Below, one piece after another: positions 5,833-34,268 of a stretch of DNA of 64,000 nt. The notes below the pieces were generated by a model. The model did no database searches. It saw nothing but the letters and a program-made list of their open reading frames with translations, and was not told where the DNA came from. How positions within the stretch are numbered: the stretch's first letter is position 1; the number at the start of each line of letters is the position of its first letter. The stretch covers positions 20,539,810-20,603,809 of the forward strand of contig NC_044924.1 in NCBI RefSeq assembly GCF_003576645.1. Direction: 5' to 3'. The position numbers and the translations under genes were made by a program. Source of the DNA: Ipomoea triloba (Eukaryota > Streptophyta > Magnoliopsida > Solanales > Convolvulaceae).

Positions 5833-8049
5833 GTGCTGAGAGAAGAGGAGGGCTGGCCCCGCGCCGAGCCTGCATCTGAAACGGAAGACGTGGTGGTCGA
5901 TCCCGCACGAGCAGATAGGGTCGTAAAGATTGGCACTGGATTGGCACCAGAACTAAGAGCCCAGATATTCGAAGTCATCCGACAGTTTAAAGAAGTTTTT
6001 GCGTGGGGTCCAGAAGACATGCCAGGTATCAATCGAAACGTTATAACCCATAAGTTAGCCGTGGACCCTACCAAGAAACCAATACAACAGAGAAAGCGAT
6101 ACATGTCGGTTGAACGAAGGGACTTTGTGAAAAACGAGGTGGTCGCGTTGACACAAGCAGGACATGTCAAGGAGATCTATTATCCCGAGTGGTTGAGCAA
6201 CGTAGTCCTGGCCCCAAAAAGTTCCACGTGGAGAATGTGCGTGGATTATACAGATCTCAATAGAGCCTGCCCTATGGATCGATTCCCCTTGCCAAACATT
6301 GATCAGCTGGTGGATGAGACGGCAGGATGCGAATTGATGAGCTTCATGGATGCCTTCCGTGGGTACCATCAGATATTCATGCATGAGGAGGATGCTGAGA
6401 AGACCGCGTTCACCACCCCAGAAGGTATTTTTTGCTACTTGGTCATGCCGTTCGGCCTCAAGAACGCAGGCGCAACTTACACCCGGATGGTGGCCAAGTT
6501 GTTTGGGAAAGTACTGGGACGAAACATGGAGGCATACGTAGACGACATGATTGTCAAGAGCCGTAGAGGTGCCTCTCATGTCAAAGACCTTAACGAGGTA
6601 TTTTCTATTATAAGAAATTTCAATTTACGCCTGAACCCTAAGAAATGCACGTTCGCAGTCAATGGGGGCAAGTTTCTGGGATTTATGGTTACTAGAAATG
6701 GGATAGAACCAAACCCAGAAAAGGTAAAAACCATTCTGGACATGGAACCCCCGCGGTCCATCAAAGAAGTCCAAAGACTCAATGGTCGCTTAGCGGCTTT
6801 GGGTCGATTTCTATCTAAATCGACCGAACGATCCCTTCCCTTCTTCCAGATACTAAAGAAGAATAAGGGGTTTGAATGGACCCCAGAGTGTCAGTCGGCC
6901 TTCGATGACTTGAAAAAATATTTGCTATCCCCGCCACTGCTTGCAAAACTAGAGGAGGGTGAAACCTTACTCTTATACCTGGGTATATCACAGGGTGCGA
7001 TCAGCTCCGTGTTGGTCAAAGAGGAAGGAGGGACTCAGCGTCCCATTTACTATGTGAGCAAGGCTTTACATGACGCAGAACTACGGTACACTGCCGTGGA
7101 GAAAACAATGTTTGCTGCGGTCACCGCCTCTAAAAGGTTGGCCCATTACTTCCAAGCTCATCCCATCCATGTACTCTCACATCAACCATTAGGGAGTTTC
7201 TTACGAAACACTAACTCTGCTAGGATGGCCAGATGGGCCATGCACCTCAGCCAGTTCGACATTGAATTCAAACCAAGGCCCGCCATCAAAGGTCAAGCCC
7301 TTGCAGACTTCATAGTGGAATGCACAGCCCGCGAGGTGACGGAGCAGGTGGAAAATGAAGATGGGGGATGGTGGACCTTGTCTACGGATGGCTCATCCAA
7401 CAGTAAAGGTTGCGGTGGTGGAGTAGTGCTCATCACTCCGGAAGGATTCCGCGCTTACTATGCAATCAGGTTCCACTTCAAGTTATCTAACAATGAGGTA
7501 GAGTATGAGGCCCTCCTCAACGGACTGTGGTTAGCAGCAGGACTACGAGCAGAAAAAGTTCGCATCCGGTGTGATTCCAAGTTAGTGGTCGGTCAGGTGA
7601 CTGGGGAATATGAAGCTAATGAAGGGAACATGCAAAGGTACAGGGATGCAGTGCTGCGAACCTTGCGAGAATTCGAGGGGTATGAAATTCACCAAGTACC
7701 TCGAGAACAGAATGCTGACGCTGACATGCTCTCCAAGCTGAGCACTGGGATCCCCGGTCACGTTCGCAAAATTGCTCGGGTTGAGGATTTGGAGACATCC
7801 AGCATCGACATCTCATGGGTCTGCCCCGTGCAATCCAAAGAGCCATGTTGGATTGACCACATCACAAAGTACAAGAAGGATGGCACTTTACCAGCAGACG
7901 AGCAAGATGCAAAACTAGCAAGGTTGCGGGCACCCAGCTACGTGATATTGGAAGACAAGTTATATAAACGATCCTATAATGGCACACTTTTGAAGTGTGT
8001 ATACCCTTTCCAAGGCCGATCCATTCAAACACCGGCTGATACTCCCTAA
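5833..8049 (+). pseudogene. Gypsy reverse transcriptase, RNase H and archaeal-type RNase H
   Basis: This long open frame holds a complete RT: WRMCVDYTDLN, FMDAFRGYHQI, MPFGLKNAGATY and the catalytic YVDD near 6535. RT is followed by an RNase H remnant (YVSKALHDAELRYTAVEK) and a second RNase H starting LSTDGSSNSKGCGGGVVL, typical of the Tat lineage. The beginning is not a true start: the frame continues from the protease segment across the TAG at 5785. The last residues after 8010 are unrelated to the left copy because integrase was deleted and the frame runs into pre-LTR sequence. Confidence 0.88.
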
Positions 8050-21280: not shown

Positions 21281-22048
21281 CTACTGATTCTGTGGGGGCG
21301 GCATTCCAGGACGGGGAGGTCCAAAGACATGAACTTGACCACCAGGAGGTGGAGGCGGCATCCCAGGGCGAGGAGGCTGTCCAGGCATATTGGGCCTAGG
21401 CGGAGCTCCGGGAGGTGGTGGACCCCTCATCATAGGAGGAGGCGGCACCATAGGCCGTTGCCCAAACTGCGGCGGGAATTGCCCTGGCGGAAGAGGTCGG
21501 AACTGCTGCGGCGCTCCCATTGGAGGCACGCCTGATCTAGCCATCAAGGGCTGCGGTGGAGGAGCCATTCCCGGAGGCGGTTGCTGAGGGTAGTTGATCG
21601 GAGGACGAGAGATCTGAGGTTGCATCATTCCCGGAGCGGGCCCACCAACACCACGAACCGGACCAGCAAGTCCGGGCTGGGCCTGAACCAACGGCCCAGT
21701 AGGAACCCCTCTCCCAGCGCCACGACCAATACCGGGCCCGGGAACGCCATTTGCAGCTCCAGTTGCCTTGACGCGGGATTCATCGGGAGGAGGCGGACCC
21801 TCAACAGTCATGGAGATAACTTCTTCGCCACGGAGGAGGAGAAGGCCGAGAGTGCGGCGATCCTCGCGCTCTTCTTTCGAGCCCTTAGTCGGTGGAAGCT
21901 TCCGGAACTCCTCGCAATCTCCGAGAACGAGATTCATGTGGCGATCGAAAGCCATGAATTTTCCGACCAACTGACGGCCGTCCTGGACCGTGACACGTAT
22001 CCGATAATTGATGTATTGAAGCATCTTGGAAGTTTTCGACATCGACAT
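21281..22048 (-). CDS. SmB: Small nuclear ribonucleoprotein-associated protein B (SmB)
   Basis: This 255-residue protein is intact from ATG (22048) to TAG. It is the SmB/B' subunit of the heptameric Sm ring that binds the Sm site of U1, U2, U4 and U5 snRNAs in the spliceosome. Residues 1-90 form the Sm fold: the Sm1 part ([40 protein letters not shown]) and the Sm2 part ([20 protein letters not shown]). The rest is a Gly/Pro/Met-rich tail with repeated PPPPG/RPGMPP motifs, as in plant and animal SmB. Length matches plant SmB proteins. The frame is continuous with no intron in the coding part. Composition is GC-richer than the neighbours and there are no disabling changes, so it is most likely a functional host gene. 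The MULE upstream begins about 200 bp from its start codon. Confidence 0.96.
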
Positions 22049-22131
22049 CTTGGCTGGATCCGAAAGAGAAAACCGGCCAAGGTTCCGCCTGGAAAGTGGG
22101 GCTTTAAGAGACGGCCGAAGGGGTTTAGGTA

Positions 22132-22140
22132 TTAGGGTTT
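22132..22140 (-). promoter_or_regulatory. Telo-box in the SmB promoter/5' UTR
   Basis: On the minus strand the sequence reads AAACCCTAA about 85 bp upstream of the SmB ATG, with a second CCTAAACCCC just downstream. This telo-box motif is known from promoters of plant genes for translation and RNA-processing factors expressed in dividing cells. Function here is inferred from motif and place only. Confidence 0.55.
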
Positions 22141-22276
22141 CTTTATGGCATTACGGTGGAAGATTATTAGGCGCGCGCAGAGCTATCTAATGTATAAAAG
22201 TGGAATTTTTTGAAAATGTGTAATATGAATTAACTAACGTACCCAATGCCCAAGTGGCCAATCGTTATACCCTACA

Positions 22277-22306
22277 CCACGGTGCACATAGCAATGTGCA
22301 CCGTGG
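22277..22306. repeat. Hairpin within the left MULE-1 terminal repeat
   Basis: CCACGGTGCACAT (22277-22289) is followed by a 4-base loop and its exact complement (22294-22306). The 13-bp stem could form a cruciform. Comparable perfect palindromes occur in the ends of the miniature element at 53755-54296. Confidence 0.8.
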
Positions 22307-22605
22307 GACTAAACGGCACCGTTCCACTAAGTGATGGGACGGACGCCGTTTAGTCCATCCAATCACCGTTATTTTTTTTTTTAATTAAAGTATATAAGTG
22401 ACGGAGAGTCTTCTTTAACAAGACTCCCGACTCTCTCGCTCCACTCACTGCACTCCCACTGCACTTCGACCAAGCAAGCAACACTCTCAAGCAAAGCAAA
22501 ACACAAACGATTCACACCAGAACTCAAGAACATCAGGACAAATACGCATTGATCAACAACAAATACACATCTTCATCGACTATCAAGAACACACGGAACT
22601 AAAAG

Positions 22606-23422
22606 GTAAATATTTAACAAACATTGTTGATCAACGACATTGTGCAAAAAAAACATAATGTTTGTATATATATCACATGCATTTGCATTCGCATTCTAGC
22701 ATGAACATTTACTGATTCTCAATATTATATCATTTTATCATACACATTGTTGATTTTCAGTATTAAACCTCATCAAACATCTGTGTTAGGTTATTGATAC
22801 TAGGGCTTAGATTCTGTGTATTATTGTTAAAGACTCTCTATATTATATCATGTCATTGTCTGCATTTTAGGATGTTACCATTCCCACATTGTTGATTCCA
22901 AGTTTCCAACATTCTTGGTGATTGATAATAATGAGAAGTATATTCTGTGTATTATTGTTATTGAGTTTGTGTATTCGCGTTAATCTGTTTGTGTATTCTT
23001 CTTACTGACTCTGTGTGTTCTAGCATTTTATCCACATTGTTGAATTTGGGTTATTGAAACTAGGGTTTATATTCTGTGTATTATTGTTAACAACTTTGTG
23101 TATTTTAGCATATCATTCTGTGTATACAAGAATGTTACCATCCCACATTGTTGATTCCAAGTTTCTAACATTCTTGGTGATTGATAATAATAAGAAGTAT
23201 ATTTTGTGTATTGTTGTTAATGCGTTTGTGTATTTGTGTTAATGTGTTTGTGTATTCTTCTTACTGACTCTGTTTATTCTAGCATTTTATCCACATTGTT
23301 GTGTTGAGGTTATTGATACTAGGGCATAGATTCTGTGTATTAGTGTTAAAGACTTTGTGTATTGTAGCATGCCATTCTGTGTATTCTAGCATGTTAATTC
23401 TGTCTTTTCTATTATGTGACAG
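22606..23422 (+). other. Intron in the 5' UTR of the Ulp1-like gene, rich in TGTGTATT
   Basis: A donor (AAAAG|GTAAAT at 22606) and an acceptor (GTGACAG at 23422, three bases before the ATG) delimit a likely intron. It holds about 15 copies of a CTGTGTATT-like motif, mostly in the form ATTCTGTGTATT, spaced 15-70 bp. No coding potential is visible. The exon before it (about 22440-22605) would be untranslated. Confidence 0.5.
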
Positions 23423-23424
23423 CA

Positions 23425-26400
23425 ATGTCAAGTTCTGATAAAAGTGATCAAGTCCTGACAACTGCCTTACAAAGAAGAAAGAGAAAGAGAGATAGTGCAG
23501 CTACGTCAAAACCACAAACAGAAGACAGGCAAAAAAAACAGAGAAAGAAGCCTGCAACAAAACGAATAAAGAAAGGGAAGGAAGTAGAGGAAGACAAACC
23601 AAAAACAAAGAAATACTTTACTGTTCGAACAACCCCTAAGCAGTTGTTCACCCTTGTCAGTAGTTTAACCGAAGATCAGCATCAAGCCGTAAAGGATATA
23701 GGATTTGGACCACTACTGGACATCAAGCTGACTCATTGTGATGGTGTGCTAATCAAGCACATATTAAAGAAGATGGACATAGAACGATGCTCCATTGAAA
23801 TTGGAGATGGTGATGATGAGCTGTGTTTGTCGGAGGATGATGTACAGTCTACACTTGGACTCCCGCAGGGCAAACTCCCTGTCATAGAGGGCACTTCTAG
23901 TAATGAGACTGAAGGATTCAATGCTTTGGTCAGGGATTGGAGACTGAGATGGGGGGTAGAGAAGGGAACCCCAACAACCACTGAAATGCTAAACAAGATT
24001 GTCGAGAGACAAGACAGTGGTGACATGTTCAAGCGTGACTTTGTCATCTTCGTGGTTACAACACTGATAAGGGGTTACAAGAACACTTTCTGCAATTACA
24101 GGATTCTATACTCACTGCAAGATGTGAGTAAAATCAAAGAAATGAATTGGTGTGCTTACACCATAAAGAGCATGCTAGACACTGTAGAGACCTGGAAATC
24201 AAACAAGGATTCCTCATACAGTGGCCCTGCAACTTTCCTAATGGTATGCAATACTAACTTATTCTTATAATTCTATAAATTATTGAATAAAATGCCTTAC
24301 TTGAGTCTGTGTATTCTATGTGTAATCTGTTGAAAGTTTCTGTGTATTCATGTTCACATTCTGTGTATTACTGAGTAATATTCTGTGTATTATAGTTATT
24401 CATTATGTGTATTCACTTATATATCTCTGTGCATAGTCCTAAATACTAAACTATAAGTCCTAGATCATAACCACTAAATGTTTGTTCTAATCTTTGTTTT
24501 TTTTTTTTTATTCTTTGAAGCTTTCTTACCTTGATCGAGTCCAGATCAGAGGGCTTGTTCTCACACAGAACCCTCCAACCATTAGAGAATGGACAAGAAA
24601 AGACATTAAAGCAACGCTTACAATGCATAGGAAGCCAGGGAAGTATGGCAGAGGAAAGGTGATTGATAGAAGGCCAATGCTTGAGGAGGAAGTGACTCGT
24701 AAACCAATTGAGTCTGAAACTGTGCAACGAGTTACTGACTCCCTGAAGAAAATGAGTTCTAGTATTGCAGAGTTTGGGGAAGTCATGGCTGGAATTGGAA
24801 CCAACAATTCAGCAGCTGAAATCATAAAGAACACTTTTGTCAACTTCTCCCACACTGTCAATCCAACACCAAGTCCAAATCCAACCCCACCGATCCCACC
24901 CGAGAGCCTGCTAAAAGATGATGATGTCTTCAACGAGCCAAGCTTCTTAGAGACAGTCGCTGAACTTGAAGCTGCATTCTATGCAACCATGAGGAACATC
25001 TCTCCTGAAATCCATGCACCTTCTTTCCAGCTGTTAACTCCGACACCATCACCACCACATTCTGAAGATCAACAAGCAGCAACAACATCACCAGCAGACA
25101 CAACAGCACCAGCGGCAGCACCAGCAGCAACAACAGCACCACCACATGCAGCAGCAACAGGAACAAAATCACCAACAGCAACATCGCATGCACCAACAAC
25201 AGCAACCCCATCCCCAATAAGGCGATCGCCGAGAGGAAAAACAGCCCAGCCTTCACTAGAGAAGACCCCACCACCACAAACACAGAGAGAACAACAAAAA
25301 GAAGCAACAGCGTCTCCAAAATCTCCTGAGATAGCAACCATGTTGGAATCATTGGTTGAAAATATTTCAAAGAGTGGCTACAGAGCAACAACAAGTAGCC
25401 CCATCTGCTTCAACACCATCTGCTACAACACCAAAAACACCAGCTGAAATTGAATTTGAAAGGTATACACCTATGCTTATAACACTTTATAATTTACTAA
25501 TACTTGTGCTTATATTCTGTGTATCTTATTGAGTGAGTCTGTGTATTCTAACATTTCATTCTGTGTATTCTGTATATTAAAATTTTTATTCTGTAATTCA
25601 CTTAGACTATATATTCTGTGTATTACATGGTAGTATTTTGTGTATTACATGCTATCATTCTGTGTATTGACTATTATATTTCTGTGTATACACAGCATCC
25701 TTGCAGAGTCTGAAGAGGATATTGAAGATGTCCACACAAAGAAAAGACCACAAAGAAAGTTGAAACAACTTCCTCTGGCCTTACGCTCACCATATTGGGC
25801 ACAAAACAGAACAAAGCTGACAAACATTTCAGCTAAACAAAAAATCTTTTCAGACTACGCATTCTTGTCTTGTGGTGGTCAATATTCAATGAAGTAAGTT
25901 CCATTTTGATAACTTTTACTAGACATATATCATATTACTTAACATGTTATTTTCCTTATGATTAATCTATATTTTACTTTGTGTAGTGATATGCTTTATA
26001 TAGGAAACAATTTGGTCGCTAATCGAGACGATTTCATGTCATTGGCATCCGGTTATGTATCTACCAACATTGTGCAAATTTGGTGCCAACTGATGAGTTT
26101 ACTGGACATGAGAAGATCAGTTGACAAGCCAAAAAGGGTTTTCTTCTCAGAAATTGTTTTTGTAAGTAACCATTTTACTCTAAACTTTTTTTTTTCTTTC
26201 CTTTATTCATACCAATGCATTGTATAACAAAAAAAAAACAAATTTTTGCAGATGACGTTGGAAAGTGCAACAAATTTGCAGAATAGTAAGAGTGCTGCCT
26301 CAAAGGCCATTTTGAAAGAATTCTGCGGAGCAATTGATCACCAACTAGAATCAATTTCTCTTGATATAAGTGATGCCAGCCTTGTAAGTACAAAATAACT

Positions 26401-29400
26401 ATACCTTAATTATTTAAATTCTGTATATTATTCATTTGAATTGTCCATATAACACAAACTGATTTGTTTTTTCTGACTACTCTTAACAGGTATTCTTCAG
26501 TATCCTCCGGCACCAACATTTCTACTTGTTGTGCTTTAATTTCTTGACATCAAGACTTCAAATAATTGACAACAGGCCTATTCCCGAAGGAATTAAAGCA
26601 CAAGACAAGTATGAAGGTTGTCCAGAGAAACTAGTAAGAAATTTTATCTCTATTAAATTCTGTGTATCTTACTGACTGAGTCTGTGTATTCTAACATTTC
26701 ATTCTGTGTATTCTGTATATTACAAAGTATATTATGTATAGGACTTAGACTACATATTCTGTGTATTACATGCTGTGATTCTGTGTATTCTGGCATACTA
26801 ATTACACACAACTATATCAATATTCTACAGTTGATTGCCTTCACTAAGTATCTCGCAACAAAGAAGATTGCACTTGCAAAGAATATGAAATCAATGAGAG
26901 TGCAATACATGCAGCTGCCTTGGCAAAATGAAGAAAATGCTGTAGACTGTGCCATATACTCGATGAGGCATATGCAGACTGTAACACCCCAATTTTCAAC
27001 TCTTACATTTATTACAAAATCCGTAATAAAACGCTGCGGAAGCTTACATCATATCAACAGAAAACCGGGTGCTACCGCCACACCTAGAGTGAATTCTATC
27101 ACCTCTTTGACAAACTCCACTCTAAGTGCACAGGCTAAACTTACAACATTAATAACAATCCCTGTCTACATCAAAGAGTAGACCTCAACCTGTACTTCCC
27201 TTCTATTCCGAGCTCATCGGCTACAGGGGCCCACACTAATCTGCAACTGATAAGAAACACATTGAAGTGCAGTTAGCACGACGGCTAAGTAAGGATATCC
27301 ATGGGTTATCCAAAACTAAATAAAGGTTTTGTAAAACTTGATTACATCAAAACCCTATCCTTACTCATCGGCCGAGGTTCTACCTGCAACCTTTACGAAT
27401 AGCAATTTATACACATAATAGGCAACAATTTCAATATCATCTTAATCATTTTCCCTCTAGACGAGGTCATATAATAGTCATTTGCCTACTCAGATCATAT
27501 AATGCTAAACATTTAAGCATATAAGCAGAAAAAGGGAAAACACAAATCCCATATTTGTTCTCAAACATATTCTTTGAAAAATCTTTCCTCAAAGGACATT
27601 CTCCTCACTTTTCACCATCTCCTTTCCGTAGCTACAGCGTAACTACATTTTCATACAAAATTTCCACTTAGTTTCTTTATAGAAAGCGTGAGGCCTTTGG
27701 AGTATTCACTTAACTCCTTCCCTGACCACTTGGATCATCGAACTCGGGTTCAGTGGTCATCACCCGGTCTAACACTGATCCCCTGGACGTAAGGTTCGTT
27801 AAAATGATCCCTAGTTGGCCCTACTAGGTCCATAAAAACGACACCTACCCGGACTTCTCAGAGTAACTATACTTTAAGTGTGCACACCCCCGCAGGAATA
27901 CCTCATCCAAACGAGTTATATAGTACCCGGCGAATAGACTTCGCACCTTTAGTATGAATGATCATACTACATACAACAACCTTGGGCAAGGGCACTTTAA
28001 GCCACCCGAAGGCTAATCAAGGTCCTCCTCAACTTTACTAGAAACCAAGGGTTTGAAAACCATTTTCCTTCCTTTCTCATCCTCCTTGAGTCAAAATCAC
28101 TTTTTTTGGACATGTTCCACGAAATCAAGTCCCCCTTTTTAAATCGATCACCATTCTCAAAATAGTTCAAAGTCTTGTTTCTCAAAACATTTTCCATCAT
28201 CACCACACATATGTATATATGCATTCAATCATAACATTTCCCACATATGCATATTCACATAAAGTACACATACTATATGTATATATATACACGTTAAGTA
28301 TATATACACTGCACATACATGCTTTATAATATACATAATACAACATTTTGTACATACATTACACACACATTATAATATACATAGCATGCTTAACTTAAAT
28401 ATTTAGGCACATTAACAACCACCTCATACCATATATAATATGTATATATTACTTATATATATACATATATATGTTACACTACACATACTATATATATAGA
28501 GATACAACCTTCATTTAATTATACATATATACTCATATATGTACATATATATATATATAGTTTAAACACACACACATCACACGTGTATATATATATATAA
28601 TATACATAATACACACATAATATATATACTACACGTATATACATAGGTTTCATATACATAATACCACTTCCTTATAAGAAAATTTCAGCTAGCGCAGTCT
28701 GAAAGATTGAGCCGGTAAAGATAGTTCCCGAACTCTTTTTCACTTGAAATTTTTATGGTAGAACCCTAACTCATAGTACTTGATGTTCATAAAAAGTTTT
28801 GGTCACCTAGGTTCACGAATTAACACAGAAAATTACATTTTTACCCTTGGCAGTGTGCTGTCCGGATTTTCTGCTCTCTGGACCAGTTTTGGAAAAATTT
28901 TGAAAACCATACTTACTACTCCAAAATTATGAAATTTTTATGGTAGTTCTAGACTTATAGAACTACATGTCTAAAAAAAATTGGATCAAAATACTTTACC
29001 GATTTTTCCCAGAAAATCACGGAAGTTACTGCCAGAATCTACCCTGATTTTTCCTTTCACTATTTTCACAACTATAAGCATATATGGGCATAAATATGAT
29101 ATGTACATGCATTTTCAGCCATTATCATGTATAGAAACATATTCATAAAACCCCTAATCTCATCATTCACTATCAATTATCTAGTTTCAAATAACCTCAA
29201 CCAAATAAAGGGATTCCTTACCTTCCGTAGGAAGCAAATCTTGGATCTTTCCCCAAATTCACCTTAAAACCCTAACATAAAACACGGTAATACGAATATG
29301 GTTCAACAAAATTCTACCCAAAACTATGAACTAGGAGTAAAACATAATTTAACCGATTAAAAATTGAAATTTACCGAACCAATCGCGATCCAAGCTCGAA

Positions 29401-30347
29401 AATTGCTTCTCTCTCTCTCTCTCTCTCTCTCTCTTACGGAAATGAGGGTGAAGACGAAATGAAGAAATGGAAATGAAGAAATGTGACTTGCTCAATCTTA
29501 TCCCTTACATATATACATATACGTAATAATATATTTAATAATAATAATAATAATAATAACAATAATAATAATAATAATAATAATTATAATAATAAAATAT
29601 AATATGTGGGATGCTTATCCAATTATATATAATAATAATATTAATAAAATATCTCCACAACATATTAGTTGTGGTCCAAACAGATAAAGTTTCGGTGGAA
29701 AATAATCCAGAAAGAATAATTTCCGACACCAAAATTTTATTCCAGTCAAAAGCTCCCAAAATGGGCTAGGTTCAGTACACTGCGAAATTTCGCGAAGTAC
29801 GATCAGAAATAAATTTCGACCCTTATAGCTCATCCAATTTCAACTTAACTAAGCAGGAAGTTCATACTTAGTCATATATGCCTAATCATCCATTTCCAAA
29901 GAAATCCGAGCTGAAAATTCGTCCCCCAAAAATTTTACGGTTCGTGACCGGCACATACGATCGCAGCTTAATAACAACTATACTTACTTATAAAAATTCT
30001 TTCGAAATATCTGAAGATCATAACTTAGGAATGTCAACGCCTTAGGATAATGTTAATAAAATACGGGGTATTACACAGACTTACACAGGCACATCAATAG
30101 AAGACTAGAATACAGGACTCACTGGAGGCCCTGAAGATGTAAGTATAAAAATATTCTTTCAACTTTCTTCCATATTAAAATATTTAACAATTCATTTCTA
30201 ATTAATTTTGCATTCTATTTTTTGCAGAATACATTCCTCACATCACTGAGAGCTAAATATGCCGCAACCATACTCATGTCAGAATGGAATACCCTTCTAC
30301 CAGAGGTGACAAATGCAGCCAAAGAAATCTACAAACAATCAAAGTGA
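23425..30347 (+). pseudogene. Ulp1-like cysteine protease gene of MULE-1 (C48 family)
   Basis: Exons by GT..AG and frame: 23425-24243, 24521-25462, 25696-25893, 25987-26161, 26252-26383, 26490-26633, 26831-26979 joined to 30081-30138, and 30228-30347. The N-terminus is Lys/Arg-rich (likely nuclear). The middle is Pro/Thr/Ala-rich. The C-terminus has the Ulp1 triad: His in LRHQHFYLL, Asp in LQIIDNRP, then Gln and Cys in LPWQNEENAVDCAIYSMRHM. Ulp1 proteases remove or mature SUMO-like modifiers; the target here is unknown. Damage: an apparent frameshift near 25380, a solo LTR inside the penultimate exon, and a TAG at 30106-30108 where relatives have Trp. Such genes are known in Kaonashi-type MULEs. 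Confidence 0.85.
26980..30075 (-). mobile_element. Solo LTR, chromovirus-like Gypsy, 3.1 kb
   Basis: It begins TGTAACACCCC and ends GGGGTATTACA, inverted termini, with CAGAC duplicated at 26975-26979 and 30076-30080. There is no internal coding region, so it is a solo LTR left by recombination. It is related, in opposite orientation, to the LTR of the Gypsy at 35357-39767: the GTCCGGGTAGGTGTC and GTGGCGG phrases match. It contains a CT tract (29402-29433), AAT tracts (29530-29640) and TA-rich sequence (28260-28650). It disrupts the protease exon just after the catalytic Cys. Confidence 0.92.
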
Positions 30348-31051
30348 CCGTGTTTGTAAAGATGATGATTTTTGTAAACTGAAATTGAAACAAGTATCTG
30401 AGATGTGTTCTTTATTTTGGAAACTACTCTAACTCTAAAATGAAAAAAAGCTTTTTGTCACATCTTATATTATAGGGTGCCATATCTATTAAGTTTATTC
30501 TGTTGATTACAAAATTTATTCTAATAATGACTTCAATTATATATTCTGTGTATTACGCAGTAACATTATGTGTATTACATGCTGTCCTTCTGTGTATTCA
30601 GTTAATGGTAACCCATAACTCTAAGACTAAACCTTAACCCCTGAAACCATAACACATAATAATATTCTGTGTATTATTGACTTCAACTCTGTGTATTCAA
30701 AAATATATCTGTATACATAGTACTGGGTGCTAAACCCTAAAACCTAATGCTAAACCCTGGCTTCCACCTCTGTCTGCTAACTCTAAAAACATATTACAGA
30801 GTGCAATTCATATTCTGTGTATTCGGCAGTACTGTTCTGTGTATTACATAGTATCACTCTGTGTATTACAGAGTGCAATATAAAGAAATAACACCAAATG
30901 GTTTCTGTTGTTGTGGTAAATAATTCTGTGTATCTTGTGGAAACAGTCTGTGTATTACTTGTAATAGTTTTGTATATAAAAAGTACAACTGCATGTCTTG
31001 AAAAAACAAAACTAACAAGCAAAAACCTACTCAGAAATCAACCTACAAACA
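30348..31051. other. Convergence zone between the two MULE-1 genes
   Basis: This 700-bp stretch contains the 3' ends of both genes. On the plus strand it holds about ten copies of TCTGTGTATT-like motifs and none of the complementary form. No additional coding region is seen. Phrases such as CTAAACCCTAA near 30720 are telomere-like but isolated. Confidence 0.5.
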
Positions 31052-33994
31052 TTAAGACACACTCTGATTGTCCTCTTGGTTTGCATTTGACCTAAAATGA
31101 CAAAATGTTGAACCTCCAGACATTGGATGCACCAGATATCCATTACCAGCTATATTAGAAATAGCATCTTCAACTTGAGACTGCCCCACCGATTTTGTTT
31201 TAGATGCAGCTATATGAGCAAGCTGCTTTCGACCCCTTGCTTTCTTGTATTTCTTTTCAATCACACTAGTCACCCTCCTATTGCGTAACCCTTTCAACCG
31301 CCTGTTTGATGGATCCTTTATAACACCGCTCGACGATTCCACATCACAATCTTCGCCTTCGAAGAAAATAGGGCCATACTCATCTTCAACTTTTCTCTTG
31401 GCATCTAACACTGCTTGCTCAAAAATTTTGCGTGCTTCGCTGTTTTCTTGGCAATAAACAACCAACTTCTGAAATTTCCTAGTGATCTCTAAAGTCCAAA
31501 CAGAAGAGGGAACATTAAAGCACTGAGATGGGGGGATAATACCAGCATTCTCGTCTTCCAAAACTCTTTTAGTCCATCTCTTCAAAATATATTTATTTGG
31601 AACTTCAGACACACAATGCACGTTTAAAATGCGTAAATAGTGACAGCATAAGATCCCGGTTTCAGTGAACAGCTTGCAACTGCACCAAATATCTAACTCT
31701 CTAACGTTAAAAATCACTTCATGCCTAATAATATCAACCTCCGGCCTCTAGACGTGATACTTATACACACCACCTTCAAATTGAACACACTCTTGATAGC
31801 ATGATGCCCCTTTCAAAAACTACTCTTCGAACAAGTAATATATCTCAATCGTATAAATATCCCTAGCGTGTGAAAGAATCATAATGTGATCCATAGCCAT
31901 TGTAGGTACACCTTGGGAACACCGGACATCTTCCCCGTTCTCTCTACTCCTCCACTCCGAAACAACACCAACAAAGGAGCTATAGAAATCACATAGCCCA
32001 GCAGTCTTGGATAACCTTCTAGAAATAGAGTGATTTGTGGTTTCACTCCTTTGTGAAGATAAAATACCACCAGAAAAATAATCTTTGTTAAATGCAGGGC
32101 ACCATTTTTCTCTACATTGATACAACTTTTCAATCCAAGAATTATTATGGCATTTGTATGTTGTGACCATCCTGGAATACCATAACATATATATTAACTA
32201 CACCTATTCATATAATATAATTCATACACAGACTCTCATATACAAATACACATGATCATTCAATTGAATACACAGAATATAAGAGGGGTATTATCAGATA
32301 TGAAGGCATGGGAATGAAAGCACAGAATCAATAGAATAAACATACTCTAACACTACAATACTCAGAATATATCAATAGAATACACATAATCTGGGTGAGA
32401 ATTGCCAACTCTGTATACTACTGCAAGCAATTGGGAAAAATATAATACATAGAATACTATAACTAAATAAACATAAATACCATCACCAATACACAGAATG
32501 TTTAATGAAAGCATACCTTGTCCAATAAAGCTCAAACTCTGCCTCTGTATCGGTATGTTTCAACAAACAATTGAATATGTCTAGAAAATCATTTTGATTT
32601 CTTAGTCCCTTGATGTGCTTCTTTGAATTCTCACTGATATGCCATATACATAGGCGATGTCTTGAGGTTGGAAAAACTTGGGAAATAGCAGCAGCCATGG
32701 CAGCGCATTGATCGGTCATTATACTCTGGGGGCTTTTCCCATTCATTGATCTTAAAAATGACCTAAACAACCATACGAACGACTCAATCCTCTCGTTCAA
32801 CAAAAAACCACATCCAAACATGACATTCATACAGTGATGGTTCATACCAACGAATGGACCACAAATCATATCATATTTGTTAGTACGATATGTCGTATTG
32901 TGAACTAACAAATCTCCAAACAATTCATAGTCTCGCATCATTTTCCCATCTCTCCAAAAAAGCTGCACAACCTTGACTCATCATCCACTTCGAAATCAAA
33001 GAAAAAATCCTTTTCACTTGACTGCCTTTGTCTAAATATTTCAATTAATGTGTTTGAGTCGGTTCCATCCAAATTGTTCAATACATCAGTGCACAGCGAG
33101 TTATATGCATCCCTGCTTGTAAAACCAACGAATGGTGACCCCCCTGATTGTGTTTTAAGAAACCGTAAACCATCAGCCACACAAACACCGCTCTTCTTCA
33201 AATCCTTTAGGTAGGAAAGATGATTTCTAGACACTGATCTATGTGACTGTAGAAGATAACTCTTGGTCGTTGGAACAAACTCATGATTATGAAGCTTCTG
33301 GTGCTTTGTCACAGTCCACATCCCATTTTCATCTAAATCAAATTGAACAGATGCACGACAACCTGTCCGTACATCAACTTTTAAATAACTTCCCTTTCTT
33401 AAAACCCTTTTAAACCCAGACTTTGAACAATTAAACTCCTTCATCTTCAATTGTTTTGTACCAGCACTATATCTTTGCTTACCCCTCCTCACACTAAAAC
33501 CTAGCCTGAAAGCATAATCATTATAAACCTCATTTGCTTCATCAATAGAACTCACTGACACCCCTAACAAGTCCTGATTCAAAGAATACACAAAATATTC
33601 ACAAAAACACACAAAATCCACCAGACTGACATTCGATAAACAAAACACAATACACCCTCTGTTTTACATATAACTACAATGAATACACAGAAACATTGCC
33701 TGAAATACTCACAGTTCATTAAAGGAATACACATAATATCCACACAAATACACAAAACTCATTTTCTACCCTTCCAATCGCATAGTTGTATCATAAAACA
33801 ATCCTAAAACCAGTATCATATAATCAAAACACACGAATCAAAGCATACGAATTCAATGATTTTCATAAACACAAAAGAAATAACAAAATCAAACATAAAA
33901 AACCTAGATTACGATCGCCTGAAATAGCCAATCCAACCGGATCATCGAGTTCTTCAGTCGTAACCACCTCCTGCTGCGAATTGACGCCTTGCAT
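31052..33994 (-). pseudogene. FAR1-type MULE transposase of MULE-1
   Basis: Likely exons on minus: 33994-33913 (start ATG), 33573-32517 and 32171-31052. Domains in order: FAR1 zinc-binding domain (EVYNDYAFRLGFSVRRGK, CRASVQFDLDENGMW, LHNHEF), MULE transposase core (FGDLLVHNTTYRTNKY, SIMTDQCAAMAAAI, HRLCIWHI), and SWIM zinc finger (WCSCKLFTETGILCCHYL). It would cut and join at the element ends. Damage: the first catalytic Asp (family D-T-T-Y) is Asn here, a frameshift lies near 32960, and TAG stops stand at 31820 and 31748 where relatives have Gln. Plant FHY3/FAR1 regulators derive from this family, but the terminal repeats mark this as a transposon gene. Confidence 0.88.
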
Positions 33995-34268
33995 ATCCTA
34001 ATGCCTGAGAATCCAAGAGCTACGACTGTATATTTGTTATTCGTGAGTTCACAAATCGGAGAAGAAGATCGCCATAACCGCCACAACACAAACAATTCAA
34101 ATTCACTGTTTCTTTTTTTTTTTTGTTTATATATATTAGGAAGTTAACGGAGGAAACGGACGTGATTCCCAAAATAACGTCCACTTAACAATATGACGCC
34201 GTTTTAATTCCTGGCGCACAATGCTACGTCCACCACGGTGCATGGTATAATTTGCCCCAAGTGGCCAA

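Follow-up and report, generated by a model that had tools for sequence, protein, structure and literature searches.

A stretch of 64,000 nucleotides from Ipomoea triloba (contig NC_044924.1, positions 20,539,810 to 20,603,809; here called the window) holds a Mutator-like transposable element (MULE) with two convergent genes, one for a FAR1-type transposase and one for a Ulp1-like (protease-like) protein. The non-coding parts of the element carry arrays of the short motif TCTGTGTATT, in which the usual distance from start to start is 22 bp. Sister subfamilies have motifs of their own, their second gene has diverged more than the transposase core, and short gene-less copies carry the arrays as well. 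We think it probable, by analogy with the VANDAL transposons of Arabidopsis and their VANC proteins, that the arrays are DNA binding sites for an anti-silencing protein from one of the element's own genes, most likely the Ulp1-like one.

The motif was counted with up to one mismatch on both strands between positions 22780 and 33770 of the window, which gave 57 matches, 45 on the plus and 12 on the minus strand. Non-coding placement (introns, 5′ region, intergenic zone) applies to 55 of them, 45 plus and 10 minus. All plus-strand copies belong to the Ulp1-like gene, where the original prediction had counted about 40 in non-coding parts: 15 are in the 5′ non-coding region (22813-23385, with a 259-bp higher-order duplication), 5 in intron 1 (24306-24413), 8 in intron 2 (25516-25690), a single one with one mismatch in intron 5 (26420-26429), 6 in intron 6 (26659-26789) and 10 in the intergenic zone where the two genes converge (30545-30956). 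The complement had been noted in two stretches of the transposase gene, and the 10 minus-strand copies are indeed found in two non-coding stretches, 6 in an intron (32223-32497) and 4 in the 5′ non-coding part or first intron (33585-33756). The remaining two minus-strand matches, with one mismatch each, are at 28608, inside a nested insertion of the long terminal repeat (LTR) type, and at 30070, where the match straddles the edge of this insertion because a 5-bp duplication puts the insertion end at 30075. Hence, the claim that the LTR is free of the motif is right for arrays but not for single matches. Exact copies number 28 within the element and one elsewhere in the window. Compared to dinucleotide shuffles (200 per segment), the seven array-bearing segments have 4-15 copies where 0.1-0.4 are expected (observed/expected 15/0.39, 5/0.23, 8/0.22, 6/0.11, 10/0.15, 6/0.20 and 4/0.10); intron 5 has one motif against an expectation of 0.00. 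The arrays are real. With up to one mismatch, the motif was not found in the three short introns of about 90 bp each or in either flank. It is also missing from the terminal repeats, the outermost copies being 554 and 499 bp away from the ends of the element. By eye, the arrays in introns 2 and 6 have a near-identical segment in common (25516-25600 and 26659-26740), which suggests that arrays were copied between introns.

The genome (462 Mb in 17 contigs, with the window on contig 9) was searched with the exon that encodes the MULE domain; there were 588 candidates, of which 150 were scored. At least 153 matches are present, which cluster by identity around 94-97, 82-87 and 75-78%, some falling in between. 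From the three groups, ten regions, each some 10 kb long, were chosen by hand and fetched; they comprise two copies of subfamily A, to which the window element belongs, four of B, one of C and three of D. The motifs are TCTGTGTATT in A, TGTGAATNTA in B (four copies), GGTACATTWT in C (one copy) and CTRYAGTTTC in D (three copies); A and B have, by eye, a TGTGWAT core in common. The two fetched A copies carry 62 and 66 motifs. The motifs of B, C and D are likewise spaced by 22 bp and mainly non-coding. When all four motifs were counted in the window element and the ten regions, each locus had 37-111 sites of its own motif and 0-9 of each other motif. Pairs of the own motif at 22 bp amount to 9-74 per locus, whereas pairs of a foreign motif are seen only in L032, which has two of them from four sites of motif C. 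Matches in exons are rare: one in one A copy, one in one B copy and, in a search with the near-palindromic D motif, two in each of the three D copies.

The 22-bp spacing had been missed in the original prediction. Among all same-strand pairs of the window element the distance is 22 bp in 27 cases, 21 bp in two and 23 bp in none, and the clusters are separated by other gaps (9, 33, 46, 63 and more). Exact 22-bp pairs number 27, 34 and 34 in the three A copies, 69, 35, 74 and 29 in the four B copies, 37 in the C copy and 22, 15 and 9 in the three D copies, with only 0-2 pairs at 21 or 23 bp in any locus examined. Information is concentrated in about 12 bases (ATTYTGTGTATT), and the spacer columns hold 0-0.6 bit. 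In the window element, neighbouring sites are 0.92 identical in the motif and 0.40 in the spacer (0.28 expected); over A, B and C the values for 22-bp neighbours are 0.87-0.92 for the motif and 0.39-0.47 for the spacer, where composition alone predicts 0.27-0.29. The D spacers are more alike (0.53-0.63 vs 0.35-0.36 expected) and regularity is lowest in the D arrays, since a 22-bp pair is started by only 22 of 64, 15 of 37 and 9 of 39 sites. Genome-wide, two A motifs in the exact pattern with 12 bases between them are found at 5906 places, compared to 67 for the reversed-pattern control, and B pairs at 22 bp at 1179 places, compared to none; these counts cover all places and are not apportioned among elements. 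Runs of two, three and four sites occur 12, 36 and 14 times in A, 12, 31 and 45 times in B (plus one run of five), 5, 9 and 3 times in C (plus two of five), and 5, 11 and 7 times in D (plus two of five and one of nine). A fixed cluster size of three to four sites was considered and is not claimed, because gene-less copies reach runs of six.

The Ulp1-like gene has changed much more than the core of the transposase. Compared to the window proteins, the transposase exons of L034 (subfamily B) are 66, 84, 79 and 54% identical and its Ulp1-like exons 26-48%; for L035 (subfamily C) the values are 66, 77, 80 and 47% and 30-54%. Exon 5 of the Ulp1-like gene has no match in L034 or L035, and one misplaced match of 24% in L034 is left out of these figures. 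With core exons of the transposase at 77-84% identity to A in both loci and Ulp1-like exons at 26-54%, the Ulp1-like protein is far less conserved than the transposase core. Tandem peptide repeats are present in some Ulp1-like proteins and absent from others (P0001; exons of L034, L035 and L037).

The Ulp1-like gene extends from 23425 to 30347 on the plus strand, with exons at about 23425-24243, 24521-25462, 25697-25893, 25988-26161, 26252-26383, 26490-26633 and 26831-26979 and a last one at 30229-30347. The gene model is based on splice contexts and on exon-by-exon matches in L032 and L033. The window copy is defective: its frame changes late in exon 2, and the LTR-type insertion disrupts it as well. 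It has no Pfam match of its own. The sole protein relative in the initial search was P0001 (Ipomoea triloba). In a further relative, P0002 from I. nil, the C48/Ulp1 domain is matched at 2.8e-5, above the curated cutoff; the B protein reaches 0.0039, under the cutoff. The name Ulp1-like is used because of the homology to P0002 and because the H, D and C residues are, by eye, in place in five fused Ulp1-like sequences. A structure model of the N-terminal domain was mediocre (pLDDT 64, pTM 0.63) and had no match in the Protein Data Bank at E 0.001, and the model of P0002 was unusable (pLDDT 30). The transposase is encoded on the minus strand (31052-33576; open reading frames 31052-31747, 31820-32173, 32507-32976 and 32938-33576) and matches the Pfam domains FAR1 (9.3e-20) and MULE (2.5e-28), with SWIM just under the cutoff (8.3e-4). 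These are the domains given for the Jittery group in PMC6446971, and by domain content the element would be of the Jittery type. In several copies two or three matches to the transposase exon lie about 1.5-2 kb apart (G000, for example C1:9126256-9130124, C5:6169046-6171463 and C5:6320951-6325310), as would result from tandem duplication of a part of this gene within the element.

Within subfamily A the arrays are on the sense strand of the gene that contains them, and the strand switches at the convergence point. In 30 loci from the 94-97% identity group (about 3.4 kb each, some overlapping and the window's own included), 423 motifs are sense, one is antisense and none is wholly inside transposase exons. 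The strand switch and the absence from exons had been predicted from the window, and the enrichment and strand bias proposed as a check on other family members are both present. That the motif is always sense, as had also been stated, is not borne out in the sister subfamilies. In B, one intron array of the Ulp1-like gene is antisense in two of four copies (7 sites in L034, 17 in L037, each with one further stray antisense site); L036 has no antisense site in this gene, and in L038 the gene is incomplete. The intergenic array of B is on the strand opposite to that of A, and three of the four B copies have antisense blocks upstream of the transposase. All five sites of the transposase intron array in the single C copy are antisense, and the asymmetric D motif is mostly on one strand throughout and thus mostly antisense to the Ulp1-like gene. 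Orientation is therefore uniform within each array, as it is in the targets of VANC21, but since the arrays of B, C and D are partly antisense to their host gene it is not tied to transcription.

Six places with motif pairs on the first contig were fetched (L042-L047). Five of these (all except L045) are related gene-less elements of about 690-750 bp, none with a stop-free stretch of more than 118 codons. All five have the left end of subfamily A and four, L047 being the exception, also its right end (17-40 bp). The first 41-44 bp of the left terminal repeat were found again in five of the six short motif-bearing loci. Each gene-less element carries 14-17 A motifs in a single orientation. A scan for target-site duplications gave candidates in two of the five, none convincing, and no candidates in the other three. 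L045 (C1:2427800-2430300) carries 19 motifs on one strand and a single motif on the opposite strand, has no A terminal sequence and shows little similarity to the gene-less copies.

Sequence-specific anti-silencing by transposons is experimentally established for the VANDALs of Arabidopsis (Hosaka et al. 2017, PMC5735166). The short motifs bound by VANC21 are arrayed in a single direction in introns and in the intergenic and terminal non-coding parts, those of VANC6 are different, and the targets evolve in the manner of tandem repeats. Conservation is much higher in VANA than in VANC, which has tandem peptide repeats (PMC5735166). Binding of VANC to the non-coding arrays leads to loss of DNA methylation (PMC5735166; PMC10398659). 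Contrary to the original prediction, that no known feature explains the arrays, the VANDAL arrays bound by VANC do. Like VANDAL21 and VANDAL6, the Ipomoea element is a MULE with an extra gene and dense, non-coding, one-orientation arrays of a short motif; in both systems related families differ in their motif, and a partner protein with tandem peptide repeats diverges faster than the transposase. Unlike the VANDALs, it has a FAR1-type transposase and a partner without detectable DUF1985 or DUF287, and its spacing is mostly exactly 22 bp over four motifs; neither "spacing" nor "22 bp" occurs in the main text of PMC5735166. Also, activity was demonstrated for VANC, whereas the Ipomoea system is known here from sequence. 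Two further systems are related. The Ulp1-bearing VANC genes KIU and Kaonashi likewise combine an anti-silencing-type protein, a transduplicated Ulp1 domain and a MULE; according to the review PMC13317346, they are strongly conserved in eudicots and, unlike the Ipomoea gene, described in non-TIR VANDALs (TIR, terminal inverted repeat). Jittery-like MULEs of melon with a ULP domain (van Leeuwen 2007, cited in PMC2528002) share the Jittery type, but motif arrays are not mentioned in the accessible section of PMC2528002.

In the mechanism that we favour, the element's own protein would bind double-stranded DNA sites that stand in direct repeat, 22 bp apart. This distance is about two turns of B-DNA, and neighbouring sites would therefore lie on the same face of the DNA. 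As in the case of Arabidopsis VANC, the Ulp1-like protein would occupy the non-coding arrays that belong to its family, DNA methylation would be lost and the genes of the element would stay on. Each subfamily would have changed its motif and its fast-evolving protein in parallel while the spacing stayed fixed, and the short gene-less copies, having kept terminal sequence and arrays, would exploit the protein in trans. Binding itself, the identity of the binder, cooperativity and the anti-silencing effect are what we infer by this analogy. Of the two proteins, we consider the Ulp1-like one the likeliest to bind, given that it changes faster than its partner and that VANC genes with a Ulp1 domain are treated in the review PMC13317346.

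It is tempting to go a step further, although this is put forward tentatively: the element may represent a VANC-like system outside the VANDAL lineage, in a FAR1-type MULE. Protein subunits would be held in a 22-bp register that stays fixed while the motif is swappable; a single genome would contain four or more specificities that exclude one another, and the gene-less copies would have multiplied through use of the protein in trans. That motif arrays can serve transposon anti-silencing is already known, and whether the FAR1-type, 22-bp and gene-less variant is new is uncertain. In a literature search that did not extend to the 2022 EMBO Journal work on eudicots, we found no description of FAR1-type MULEs with motif arrays at 22 bp, of a 22-bp register kept across motifs or of gene-less elements made up of terminal sequence and arrays. 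In this genome there are several natural protein/array pairs with different motifs and a common spacing, together with minimal gene-less targets of about 700 bp, so that specificity switching, the role of the spacing and exploitation in trans become directly testable. The protein regions that set the target specificity of VANC were named as a future question (PMC5735166). If the activity is true, modular tools for locus-specific demethylation in plants are suggested.

The arrays could also be explained without an anti-silencing protein of the element. The original prediction had named, among its candidates, transposase-binding sites, silencing escape and RNA-level signals. Protein binding and silencing escape are near the reading preferred here, but a sense-strand RNA signal for splicing, export, packaging or RNA-level silencing escape has a very low probability; the near-strict sense orientation in subfamily A (423 to 1) is what such a signal would give, but the antisense arrays in B (L034, L037), C (five of five) and D (mostly) and the arrays kept by gene-less copies make it unlikely. 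Sites for a host DNA-binding factor, either a transcriptional activator or an anti-silencing factor recruited by the element, would lead one to expect the same enrichment in non-coding parts and gene-less copies; this is improbable too, as four motifs with one spacing in sister subfamilies of one genome are not readily explained by one factor. A neutral minisatellite, in which a functionless word was multiplied by slippage of a 22-bp unit and spread by local duplication, appears only slightly less improbable. Higher-order local duplication is indeed seen (259 bp in the 5′ region, the stretches common to introns 2 and 6), spacer identity exceeds chance a little in all subfamilies and clearly in D, and constraint within A is only modest. 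Neutral decay, however, would erase motif and spacer alike, whereas in A, B and C the motif is kept at about 0.9 and the spacers at about 0.4; there are almost no slips to 21 or 23 bp, the spacing is the same in four subfamilies, exons are free of arrays and gene-less copies retain them. For the same reasons of fixed spacing and poorly conserved spacers, the drifting microsatellite that had been named as the alternative fits poorly. A better case, still an unlikely one, can be made for binding sites of the FAR1-domain transposase that serve transposition or transposase-driven activation. FAR1 is a DNA-binding domain; between A and the other subfamilies the exon that encodes it has 60-66% identity (76% in one partial match), compared to 75-84% for the core exon; and the gene-less copies retain arrays together with terminal sequence. 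Yet the motifs begin hundreds of bp inside the ends, none is in a terminal repeat, and the arrays spread over introns and the middle of the element.

Several observations speak against binding by an anti-silencing Ulp1-like protein. As maize MURA demonstrates, hypomethylation can be caused by a transposase itself, and TnpA of Spm is also linked to it (PMC10398659). The C-terminal transposase exon, with 47-54% identity, is as divergent as some Ulp1-like exons. Pfam gave no C48 match in the fused A, C or D exons and no DUF1985 or DUF287 match in the N-terminal region of the Ulp1-like protein; a sequence search of the A protease part against solved structures gave no match (best E 2). Genome-wide, DUF1985 has a single match, under the cutoff and elsewhere in the genome, with which the Ulp1-like protein shows weak collinearity (E 0.018 and 0.051, probability 1-3%). 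What is said of subfamily C, moreover, comes from one copy. Finally, in an alignment of the transposase intron from 30 A copies, motif columns have a mean diversity of 0.066, other intron columns one of 0.085 (permutation test, p 0.014) and the adjoining exon one of 0.021. The motif columns are thus only modestly less diverse than the rest of the intron; at C positions it is the motif columns that have the higher diversity (0.189 vs 0.143). Because this effect is modest and reversed at C positions, the case for constraint rests on the long-term pattern of spacing kept and spacers lost. In the exon at 32507-32976 of the same 30 copies, diversity is 0.054 at C and 0.038 at G compared to 0.004 at A and 0.008 at T, a concentration that would be expected of cytosine-methylation decay in silenced copies.

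The whole element, a subfamily A copy, spans 22259-34255 and is about 12.0 kb long, including the nested insertion of 3.1 kb. Its ends were placed where similarity to L032 and L033 is lost. It is a MULE, having a MULE transposase domain, terminal repeats and a target-site duplication of 9-10 bp: CCCAAGTGGC at 22249-22258 is repeated exactly at 34256-34265, and all three subfamily A copies (window, L032 and L033) have such a duplication, each with its own sequence. Local alignment of the two ends gives degenerate terminal inverted repeats of about 95-110 bp with gaps (22259-22356 on the plus and 34148-34255 on the minus strand). The nested LTR-type insertion (26980-30075, 5-bp duplication CAGAC), read from the sequence and seen as a gap in the comparison with L032 and L033, has no motif array within. 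The MULE has inserted close upstream of an open reading frame on the minus strand (21281-22150) whose product resembles an SmB-type ribonucleoprotein.

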